From Sulfitobacter sp. (GTDB lineage Bacteria > Pseudomonadota > Alphaproteobacteria > Rhodobacterales > Rhodobacteraceae): a DNA stretch of 33,202 bases. This document shows, one piece after another, positions 16,592-22,441 of the stretch (position 1 is its first letter; every line of letters starts with the position of its first letter). The DNA lies in NCBI GenBank assembly GCA_024636445.1, contig JAGXHE010000182.1, positions 1-33,202 of the forward strand. Reading direction: 5' to 3'. The position numbers and the translations under genes were made by a program. The notes beneath the pieces are model-generated. The model was not told the origin of the DNA. It did no database searches and was given only the letters and a program-made list of their open reading frames with translations.

Positions 16592-19102
16592 TCAGCCCTG
16601 CGGCATCTTCAAGACCAGGTTGCGTCCGCCTTTTTGATAGAGCAGTTCGCTTTCGCCGATGGCCGACACGCGGCCTCCGTCGATGCTGTCACCGACCTGT
16701 ACCTTTTGATAGCGTCCGTTCGACAGCCGCACCAGCGCACGGCGTGACGAGGGTTTGCCATAGACGCCGATCAGATTGACCTTGCGCAGATTGATGGCCT
16801 TGCTGATCGTCGCCTCGCGTTGGACGCTGGTTTTTGACGGAATTCTGGGCGCTACCGTCACCGGTGCTGTGGTGGCCGGTGCAGGGGCCACGGCTGCGGT
16901 CTGGGTTTGCGCAGGCTCGGCCGCACGGGCACGCGCGACGGTACGGTCAAAGTTATTGGGCCGTACCGTCGGGCGGAACGACAATGTTGCGGCCTGCGCG
17001 GTCGGGACTTCGTCTTTTTCTTCTTCGATCTTGGCCACGGCAGGGCGCAGTTGCGGGCGCACTTCAGCCAGCTCGTTGCGGGTCCGGCCGCCCAGATTGG
17101 CCCGCTCAGTGGTCTCGATCAGATCGCCGGGGCGCGCACGTGGACGGGCGCGTGCCAGCCGGTCAAGCTCGGGGTTCACTTCGGGTGTTTCGGCAAACCG
17201 TGTGGGCGTCGGCGGCGGGACAACGGCGGGGCGGCCTGCATAAAGTGTCACGCCGTTGGGGGTCTCGGCACCTTCGGGCGTCGGGATAACGCGGCCTGCG
17301 CTGTCCAGCGCAAAACTGGTTCCCGCCGCTGCGGGCGAGGGCATGGCGACCAGGGCAATATCAGTGTCCAGCGCGGCAGGCGCGGGCAGGGCCACTGCAT
17401 CACGGGCGGGGCTGATTGGGTCGATAGATGCGGCATAGAGGTCTTCCAGCGGACCCACCTCCGCGGCTTGTGGCACTTCGGGGGCCAGCGGCCAGATGCC
17501 GGTGACCGCATAGCGCGCTTCGGCAGCCTGACGGATGCGTTCTGGGTCGTTTTCGGTGATGTCTACTGGCGCGGGCTGGGGCTCTGGCTGGGGCAGCGGG
17601 TCGCGCATGGCGTCCAGAACGGCGGCATCTTCATCACTGAGCGCGGGGTCGAAGCTGGCCACTTCCACATCCGCATCGTCTTGCGCATCCGCGCTGTCTT
17701 CGATCTCTTCGGGTTCGGGCAGGATTTCGGGCGGCGCTTCGACCACCACGGGATCTGCCGCACGACCAAAGAAACGCGCCAGACCTTCGTCCATGAAAAC
17801 CGATGCCCAAGCCGCGATACCGGCAAGAAATACCAGCAAGGCCGCAGTCAGTATCAACCCAAAAAACCGAGGCTTGCCGCCGACTTTTACCGGCTCCTTG
17901 CTGCGTGCGCCAAAGACCGTCATGCGCTGCGCTTCGTCTGCGGACGCGGTGGGCTGTGTCGGCGCAGAAGGCGCAGGGGTTGCGGCTGGATTGGTGCGTT
18001 TGGGCTTGCGGCGGCGACTCATGAAACCGGCGACGCTGGCCTTGGCAATCGCCATCGGGTTTTCGTCGCTGTCCGTATTGGGCTCGGGGTTGGCGGGCGG
18101 TGCCTCCGCTTGGGTGTCGGTTATCGCGTCGGATTGGTCTTTGGACCGTGGTGTGATTCGCGGCGCGCTGGACGGTGCCGAGCCGGCAACGACGGCGGGT
18201 GCTGAGCGCACAGGCGGCGTCTCTGCGCGATTGGCTCCACCAAGTGCGGGCGGATTTCTGTCAGACGTGCGGCGGGTGGAAAAACCGAAATCAGCCGGGG
18301 GCGGTGTGTCTGCCGCGTCACCCTTTTTGTCGGTCTCTTTGGTCTTGAGGTCTGCCTTCGGCGCTGGCGTTTCAGACTCCATTGCCGGGGCAGGGTCCAC
18401 TTTGGATGTGACTGCGGAAGCGTCTTCGTCGGATTTGGCTTCTGATTCTGGGTCTGGCTCTGCTTCCGGCTCGGGTGTTTCCACGACCGCAACCTGATCC
18501 TCAACCGCAACGGGCGTATCACCCGCAGTCGCAACCGGACCTTTCGGCGTCTTGATGTCGCCAATCACCACGACCGCGATTCCGTCTGGCGTTACGCTGT
18601 CGCCCTGCTCAAGCAGATCGGCGGCGTGGCTGGTCACCCCCAGAAACGGCTCGCCCAGAAATCCGGCCTCGCCGGGGATCGACACAAAACTGACCGGGTG
18701 AAACCGGTGCAGCATCGCGAACTCTTCCGCCTCGTTCAGCGTTTCACGGGCAACGGCGGCCACATGGGTCTGCGCCCCGTCGGCGCATATATCGACGCTC
18801 AGATCGTCCACCGCATAGGGCGTCGCCCCTTCGAGCGCTGCAAAGGCGGCGGACCAGCGGCCATCCTCATCCACATTGCCACTTTCGACGGTCAGATAGC
18901 GGATCTGCTCGTCTGGAATGATCAACTTGCTGCGCACACCGCGCGGCTCGAGATCAGAGGCTGTCTTGCGCAAGGCAGCCAGTTCTGCGGCCATGTCTTC
19001 TGCTGCCAGCGACACTTCGCCGACCACGCGCCAGCCACCCGCAGCGCGATGCAGCAGGCGAATGCCGTCAAAAGACAGGCTGAGCGCGAAATTCGGCTTC
19101 AT
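16592..19102 (-). CDS. Large single-pass membrane protein: N-terminal PilM/GspL-like domain, Pro/Ala/Glu-rich linkers, TM helix, C-terminal PilP/GspC-like domain
   Basis: N-term MKPNFALSLSFDGIRLLHR...RSKLIIPDEQIRYLTVES...AAFAALEGATPYAVDDLSVDI; TM FFGLILTAALLVFLAGIAAWASVFM; C-term INLRKVNLIGVYGKPSSRRALVRLSNGRYQKVQVGDSIDGGRVSAIGESELLYQKGGRNLVLKMP. Confidence 0.8.
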   Translation of the reverse strand: MKPNFALSLSFDGIRLLHRAAGGWRVVGEVSLAAEDMAAELAALRKTASDLEPRGVRSKLIIPDEQIRYLTVESGNVDEDGRWSAAFAALEGATPYAVDDLSVDICADGAQTHVAAVARETLNEAEEFAMLHRFHPVSFVSIPGEAGFLGEPFLGVTSHAADLLEQGDSVTPDGIAVVVIGDIKTPKGPVATAGDTPVAVEDQVAVVETPEPEAEPDPESEAKSDEDASAVTSKVDPAPAMESETPAPKADLKTKETDKKGDAADTPPPADFGFSTRRTSDRNPPALGGANRAETPPVRSAPAVVAGSAPSSAPRITPRSKDQSDAITDTQAEAPPANPEPNTDSDENPMAIAKASVAGFMSRRRKPKRTNPAATPAPSAPTQPTASADEAQRMTVFGARSKEPVKVGGKPRFFGLILTAALLVFLAGIAAWASVFMDEGLARFFGRAADPVVVEAPPEILPEPEEIEDSADAQDDADVEVASFDPALSDEDAAVLDAMRDPLPQPEPQPAPVDITENDPERIRQAAEARYAVTGIWPLAPEVPQAAEVGPLEDLYAASIDPISPARDAVALPAPAALDTDIALVAMPSPAAAGTSFALDSAGRVIPTPEGAETPNGVTLYAGRPAVVPPPTPTRFAETPEVNPELDRLARARPRARPGDLIETTERANLGGRTRNELAEVRPQLRPAVAKIEEEKDEVPTAQAATLSFRPTVRPNNFDRTVARARAAEPAQTQTAAVAPAPATTAPVTVAPRIPSKTSVQREATISKAINLRKVNLIGVYGKPSSRRALVRLSNGRYQKVQVGDSIDGGRVSAIGESELLYQKGGRNLVLKMPQG

Positions 19103-21439: not shown

Positions 21440-22441
21440 TCAGCGCATCCAGAAGCCTTCGGACTTGATCCGGTTGCGGATCGCCTGTTCGCGGCGGGGC
21501 AGGTTGTCTTGATCAAATAGCGCGCGCACCTTTTCGCCGCGCCCCTGATAGACCATGCGCTTGATCGGGTCGTAATTCTTCAGCACTTTTTTCAGCTTGT
21601 TGGGGGCCGCGACCTCTTCCAGCGTGGCGACCACCCGGTCGGCCTCGCGCGCATAGAGCAGCGGCAGCATCCGGTAATGGCAGCTGACCGTATCGTCCAG
21701 CAGACCCATGGGCAGCGTGTCGCGCCCGCCGCCTAGGCTGTGGATCACCAGCGGCAGGGCAATCTGGTCCAGCCAGGGGTCCATCTCCTGACAGCACAGC
21801 TCGACCGGGGTGTCGTCGCGGATCGCCAGCGCATATTCGCGGAACTTGTCGCCAAAGACACGCGGGCATTTGTAGAAGAAATAACCAGCGTTGAAGTAAA
21901 GATAACGGGCCCAGTATTCATCGGGCTCGGCCAAGTCCATGCTGGACGCGAAATCCAAGGAGAACTTGTCATAAAGCGATTTCCAGATGCCCGCATAGAC
22001 GGGGCCGTAAAGCTCCGGCTTGGGCCACGTGCCGGTGCGCCGCAGCGATGCCGAGGGGCGTTCGAAATCGAACGGCACCGATGTCAGATCGCCGGTGATC
22101 AGCGTATCGGTGTCGAAGAACACAAAAGGCGCACCTTCGGGCAGGGCGCTCAGCATCTCGATCTTGTTGCCATAGGGATAGGCCGCACCGAAATGCGCGC
22201 TGTGAAACGGCACGATCTCGGCGCCCAGCTCTTCCAAAGCTCCGCGCACGTCGGCTTTGAGGCGGGGATCGTTTGGCCACAATGGTCCGGGCTGCGGTTC
22301 GGCCACCATCAGCCGGCCTTTGAAATCGGGGCTATGATGCCGCAAGGAGGCCGCGAACAGGATCGCCTCATAGCCCAGACGACCGGATTGGCCGACGACC
22401 ACGACGTTGTAATCCGGTGTTTTTGCGGGTTTGCGTGCCAT
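21440..22441 (-). CDS. Hypothetical protein, glycosyltransferase-like (GT-A type DxD-like motif)
   Basis: Intact 333-aa ORF; GAPFVFFDTDTLITGDL resembles the nucleotide-sugar DxD region of GT8-like proteins; YLYFNAGYFFYKCPRVFGDKFREY. Confidence 0.6.
   Translation of the reverse strand: MARKPAKTPDYNVVVVGQSGRLGYEAILFAASLRHHSPDFKGRLMVAEPQPGPLWPNDPRLKADVRGALEELGAEIVPFHSAHFGAAYPYGNKIEMLSALPEGAPFVFFDTDTLITGDLTSVPFDFERPSASLRRTGTWPKPELYGPVYAGIWKSLYDKFSLDFASSMDLAEPDEYWARYLYFNAGYFFYKCPRVFGDKFREYALAIRDDTPVELCCQEMDPWLDQIALPLVIHSLGGGRDTLPMGLLDDTVSCHYRMLPLLYAREADRVVATLEEVAAPNKLKKVLKNYDPIKRMVYQGRGEKVRALFDQDNLPRREQAIRNRIKSEGFWMR

Follow-up and report, generated by a model that had tools for sequence, protein, structure and literature searches.

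A GspL/PilM-like and a PilP/GspC-like domain joined in one predicted bitopic protein across the Rhodobacteraceae: a possible secretin-independent trans-envelope tether

Results

Domain layout of the 836-residue protein

We analysed a window of 33,202 nucleotides of a Sulfitobacter sp. contig, whose minus strand carries an open reading frame of 836 amino acids at 16592..19102, exactly as given in the initial annotation. The frame starts with ATG and ends with the stop codon at 16592-16594, and all features of the protein described here lie on the same strand. From its N-terminus, the protein consists of a GspL/PilM-like half-actin domain, a linker, a transmembrane (TM) helix, a periplasmic arm and a homology-region (HR) domain. 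This plan was constant in both of our alignments, one of the homologs of the first search and another of 76 sequences, taken from the window and from named genomes, and we found no Pfam or NCBIfam model that covers the architecture.

The N-terminal domain (residues 1-165, 18608..19102) is followed by a variable cytoplasmic linker (residues 166-385, 17948..18607) of low conservation. The alignment then shows the conserved juxtamembrane motif RMTVFGAR (residues 393-400, 17903..17926), after which GGKPR follows. Hydropathy predicted a single TM helix at residues 413-435 (17798..17866), close to the position 17793-17871 proposed earlier. The positive charge was higher on the N side of the helix than on the C side in 76/76 homologs, which fits an N-in/C-out topology. 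Beyond the helix, the predicted periplasmic tail is 367-518 residues long among the 76 homologs. It begins with an acidic Pro-rich linker (residues 441-520, 17543..17782); both this linker, described previously as Pro-rich, and the cytoplasmic one, described as Pro/Ala/Asp/Glu-rich, are Pro/Ala/Asp/Glu-rich by composition.

The next block (residues 521-690, 17033..17542) is conserved and mostly non-globular, with the conserved stretches YAxTGIWxxAP, DAVALP and NERAxLGGLTRxELA, and matched no Pfam family in the profile search. We identified RPxxRP motifs at three fixed places, namely residues 653-658 (17129..17146; 72/76 homologs), 682-687 (17042..17059; 74/76) and 710-715 (16958..16975; 47/76). 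The motif occurred 2.54 times per protein, compared with 0.05 times in shuffled sequences. These repeats, lying in an extended periplasmic arm, are likely docking sites. The protein ends with the PilP/GspC-type HR beta domain (residues 755-836, 16595..16840). No PDZ domain was seen, a difference from GspC, and the domain search found no catalytic or kinase-like domain.

The N-terminal domain resembles the first half of the GspL/PilM fold

AlphaFold2 modelled residues 1-190 from the 76-sequence alignment with a pLDDT of 94.2 and a pTM of 0.90. When this model was compared with the PDB by Foldseek, the first 14 matches were all GspL or PilM (E 7e-8 to 3e-5), with FtsA next. The matches included PulL (5tkw, 7.1e-8), PilM (5eoy, 2.3e-7) and GspL (4pht, 5.0e-7), and the GspL structures among them comprised PulL, EpsL and the Vibrio vulnificus GspL with GspE. 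Similarly, hhalign aligned the domain with GspL of a type II secretion system (T2SS) operon from genome G356 at E=6.5e-6, compared with 0.17 for an unrelated control. By sequence alone, the PDB gave unconvincing matches only (CENP-S, 0.05), and the fold was needed to place the domain. The window protein matched neither T2SSL (PF05134) nor PilM_2 (PF11104) of Pfam; sub-threshold T2SSL matches appeared in 3/76 homologs (best E 0.027) and PilM_2 in 1/76. Two other candidate relatives were rejected, since the scores of an R64-type PilO (L196, E 0.39) and of a protein with a PilN domain from a second T2SS operon (L197, E 0.25) were about that of the unrelated control.

The domain is about 165-180 residues long and its query-normalised TM-scores were 0.44-0.55, indicating an actin-type fold of which roughly the first half alone is present. 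Because the nucleotide-binding half would thus be missing, the domain is unlikely to be an ATPase, and from the model we infer no nucleotide binding.

The C-terminal domain is of the PilP/GspC type

The core of the C-terminal beta domain was modelled by AlphaFold2 with a pLDDT of 93-96. Elsewhere in the periplasmic part the pLDDT varied, dropping below 50 in places and rising to about 95 in short helices, and the model had no overall fold (pTM 0.28). Plausible Foldseek matches of the HR domain were PilP (3jc8_Pa at 2.8e-4, 2y4y and 2lc4), the PulC HR (6hcg) and GspB, and its comparison with GspC 3oss gave a TM-score by target of 0.76 with an rmsd of 2.1. Sequence profiles agreed with the fold. 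The NCBIfam family pilP_fam (TIGR03021) was matched by 73/76 members (best 1.7e-8), the window protein itself scoring 21.8-24.8 bits, below the curated cut-off of 34.65 bits. Pfam PilP was matched by 63/76 members (best 2.3e-4), and PDB profiles matched the domain to GspC 7oio (E=0.003) and to PilP (0.027). By profile and structure searches, the ferredoxin-like domain of PilN/T2SSL, expected after the TM helix, was absent from residues 505-836.

The fold matches at each end bear out the earlier proposal that both ends of the PilMNOP or GspL-GspC relay sit in one polypeptide. The PilM/GspL and PilP/GspC folds foreseen there were both found, the actin-type fold in its first half only.

The gene is universal in the family and under purifying selection

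We identified the gene by tblastn in 148/150 genomes of the order, all Rhodobacteraceae, representing 74/74 genera, and a profile search recovered it from the remaining two (G006 and G142), giving 150/150. Among 290 genomes drawn from across the class, only the 4 Rhodobacteraceae genomes contained the N-terminal domain, apart from one weak match in G356, and the fusion architecture was not seen in the 286 genomes of other alphaproteobacterial families. A search of 72,556 plasmids gave two partial matches only. Short homologs in G102 and G111 lie at contig ends and are not real short forms. The homolog in G127 is split into two overlapping frames of 272 and 732 aa (L118:5446-8257, minus strand), either through a genuine frameshift or through a fault of the assembly.

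We compared the window protein with its three nearest relatives by pairwise dN/dS (Nei-Gojobori). The ratio was 0.05-0.10 in the N-terminal domain, 0.11-0.14 in the conserved middle block and 0.11-0.12 in the HR domain, and reached 0.32-0.41 in the first linker (residues 190-385). Purifying selection acts on the N-terminal domain, TM helix, middle block and HR domain. With homologs in every genome and values of 0.05-0.14 across its folded as well as its conserved parts, this conservation is far beyond chance.

A Cys/Met PLP enzyme gene lies upstream in all 60 loci with full flanks, hppD in 40/60, and a divergent SIMPL gene in 39/60; further neighbours are an AsnC regulator and the conserved antiporter and cobS/cobT genes. 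No pilus, Tad, T2SS or secretion genes belong to this conserved neighbourhood. Thus the label 'orphan' used in the initial annotation holds as far as adjacent pilus and secretion genes are concerned and fails if it means rare or isolated, the gene being a core gene of the family. The SIMPL protein was rejected as a dedicated partner, because its gene was not detected in the flanking sequence of the other 21/60 loci. The Cys/Met PLP enzyme, hppD, antiporter and cobS/cobT offer no functional lead. We also noted a 333-aa protein without a Pfam or NCBIfam match (window 21440-22441, minus strand), which stands beside the Cys/Met PLP enzyme in 55/60 loci at about 72% identity.

The gene is retained in genomes without a secretin or secretion ATPase

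Profile searches of the window's genome (G000) found no secretin (PF00263) and no T2SSE-family ATPase (PF00437), with positive controls matched in both cases; the genome is estimated to be 100% complete, and draft assemblies could hide such a locus. An STN-type partner (PF07660) was likewise absent from this genome. Across the order, 145/150 genomes carry a secretin. The five that do not (G000, G022, G054, G055 and G139) belong to four genera and all keep the fusion gene, and four of them (G000, G022, G055 and G139) have no GspE/PilB-type ATPase (PF00437) either. The HR domain is clearly conserved in G139 and G055, and that of G022 scores like those of its secretin-bearing congeners. These genomes speak against reading the protein as a pilus or secretion component.

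The three nearest relatives of the window species carry a secretin, which makes a recent loss probable in the window species, where selection has perhaps not yet relaxed; G022, G055 and G139 consequently carry more weight. These three genomes (loci at G022:C17, G055:C4 and G139:C23), apparently lacking any secretin and T2SSE ATPase, offer natural backgrounds for probing a secretin-independent function.

A second, free-standing HR protein

Roughly half of the 150 Rhodobacteraceae genomes gave two HR matches. A second, mini-HR protein of about 85-100 aa, with no evident signal peptide or TM helix, is encoded directly after purF in two distant genera and follows purF in the window's genome too. 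In the latter it lies at G000:C44:9672-9905 on the plus strand (inside L194:8376-8969, plus strand), and its frame ends in LRPRSRP, resembling the RPxxRP motif of the long protein. Further copies were located at L139:9588-10025 (minus strand), L140:8985-9362 (plus strand), L158, L159, L165, L172 and L176, and the gene order shared by the two distant genera is radA - purF - mini-HR - SDR - surE - pcm. The missing leader suggests cytosolic partners for this protein.

A split relative in a T2SS operon

The class-wide HR search gave weak matches in 13 genomes outside the Rhodobacteraceae. The loci that we opened were an annotated-type GspC beside a secretin (L197), an R64-like pilus operon with PAP_PilO (L196) and a T2SS operon (L193). 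In the last, from G356, the weak N-domain match and an HR match hit closely spaced genes of one operon, which encodes a secretin, prepilin peptidase, GspE, GspF, GspG, a pseudopilin, GspK, GspL (PilM_2+PilN), GspM and the HR protein. The hhalign E-values against these proteins were 6.5e-6 for the N-terminal domain with GspL and 3e-6 for the HR domain. GspL, GspM and the 177-aa HR protein follow in succession at L193:8463-10709, an order colinear with the fusion and the nearest split arrangement that we found.

This trio may model the ancestral split arrangement. The fusion could have arisen by deletion, as judged from colinearity only: a T2SS operon with gspL and the HR gene in this colinear order would have lost the PilN-like part of gspL, together with gspM, from between the two ends, presumably at the base of the Rhodobacteraceae. 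No intermediate between the split operon and the fusion was found among the genomes searched.

Discussion

The two ends of the protein have well-described counterparts. In type IV pili and T2SS, a link of GspL to the ATPase has been shown and one of PilM is likely, PilM binds PilN, and the HR domains of PilP and GspC bind the N0 domain of the secretin (PMC4471445, PMC3169554). The N-terminal domain resembles GspL (PulL/EpsL) and PilM in the fold of its first ~165 residues and in its cytoplasmic position, and GspL also continues into a single TM helix; however, in the present protein about half of the actin-type fold is missing, no PilN/ferredoxin-like domain follows the helix, and the protein is kept without GspE/PilB. 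The HR domain, as in GspC and PilP, ends a long disordered periplasmic arm, a feature described for PilP (PMC4471445), but here it sits on a GspL-like protein, at the end of an arm of 367-518 residues with RPxxRP motifs, and persists without a secretin. R64-type/T4b PilP (TIGR03021) is close in that 73/76 members match its profile and one HR relative belongs to an R64-like operon that includes PAP_PilO, whereas the window protein falls below the curated cut-off and has no R64-type pilus genes adjacent. A precedent for fusing neighbouring proteins of the alignment subcomplex is the PilO-PilP gene fusion, e.g. Pseudomonas putida Q88CU9 (PMC3169554). That fusion joins two periplasmic partners within a pilus system, while the one described here joins the cytoplasmic and the outer-membrane-facing ends with no system needed. 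Our literature search turned up no description of this gene or of such a fusion. Fusions within the same subcomplex are thus known, and what is apparently new is an architecture made of known domains and put to a new use.

We give about an even chance to the explanation that the protein is an exapted, secretin- and ATPase-independent bitopic tether or scaffold across the envelope, built from parts of the T2SS platform. The half-actin domain would dock a cytosolic partner in the manner of GspL and PilM but bind no nucleotide. The arm, long and flexible, would span the periplasm and hold one or more periplasmic partners through the RPxxRP repeats and block 521-690, and the HR domain at its far end would dock a non-secretin outer-membrane or periplasmic protein, probably in the edge-strand mode of GspC and PilP. 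In this arrangement the ends are covalently joined with no ferredoxin-like middle proteins between them, and the pore and motor would be dispensable; these properties favour a tether or scaffold. A broader proposal, to which we lean somewhat less, is that the chimera fixed throughout the family would be a universal tether independent of secretin and motor with a core cellular role, accompanied by the leaderless HR protein beside purF.

Counting against the tether is the secretin found in 145/150 genomes, and a secretin-linked role in most species is possible. The protein could accordingly be an accessory linker for the Tad (CpaC) or T2SS secretin of most Rhodobacteraceae, a linker which the few secretin-less genomes would simply not have lost yet, an account consistent with the known binding of GspC and PilP HR domains to secretin N0 (PMC3169554, PMC4471445) and with the secretins of the window's closest relatives. 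We consider it rather unlikely, because 5/5 secretin-less genomes in four genera keep the gene and 0/150 lack it, their HR domains are intact, the conserved neighbourhood holds no Tad or T2SS genes, and the window's genome has no STN-type domain. The earlier idea of a reduced alignment complex is disfavoured likewise, by the window's genome and three others that keep the gene with neither secretin nor GspE/PilB-type ATPase.

The other early suggestion, a repurposed signalling device, fares better in its first word than in its second: repurposing fits, but nothing points to signalling specifically, and a structural tether is preferred. Signalling from periplasm to cytoplasm, with the HR domain and RPxxRP motifs sensing the state of the envelope and the half-actin domain relaying it to a cytosolic protein, would agree with the bitopic topology and with a single TM helix preceded by the conserved RMTVFGAR-GGKPR motif. 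It is less probable still than a secretin accessory, since neither a catalytic or kinase-like domain nor the nucleotide-binding half was found, and the long cytoplasmic linker is so variable (dN/dS 0.32-0.41) that a rigid conformational relay is unlikely. That the gene is a functionless relic of a lost T2SS might be read from its T2SS-derived parts and from the surviving half of the GspL cytoplasmic fold; its presence in 150/150 genomes and the strong purifying selection on the N-terminal, TM, middle and HR parts make this highly improbable.

Textbook examples of co-option include the type IV filament machines, but the derivatives known to us have remained machines that keep their motor and pilins. 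In the present case nothing of the alignment complex is left but its two ends, united in a single protein that is retained by every genome examined of the Rhodobacteraceae, an abundant marine family. If the protein is a tether, it would provide a handle on how the cytoplasm, the wall and the outer membrane of these cells are connected, as well as a clean test for partners of HR and GspL-type domains beyond secretins and secretion ATPases.
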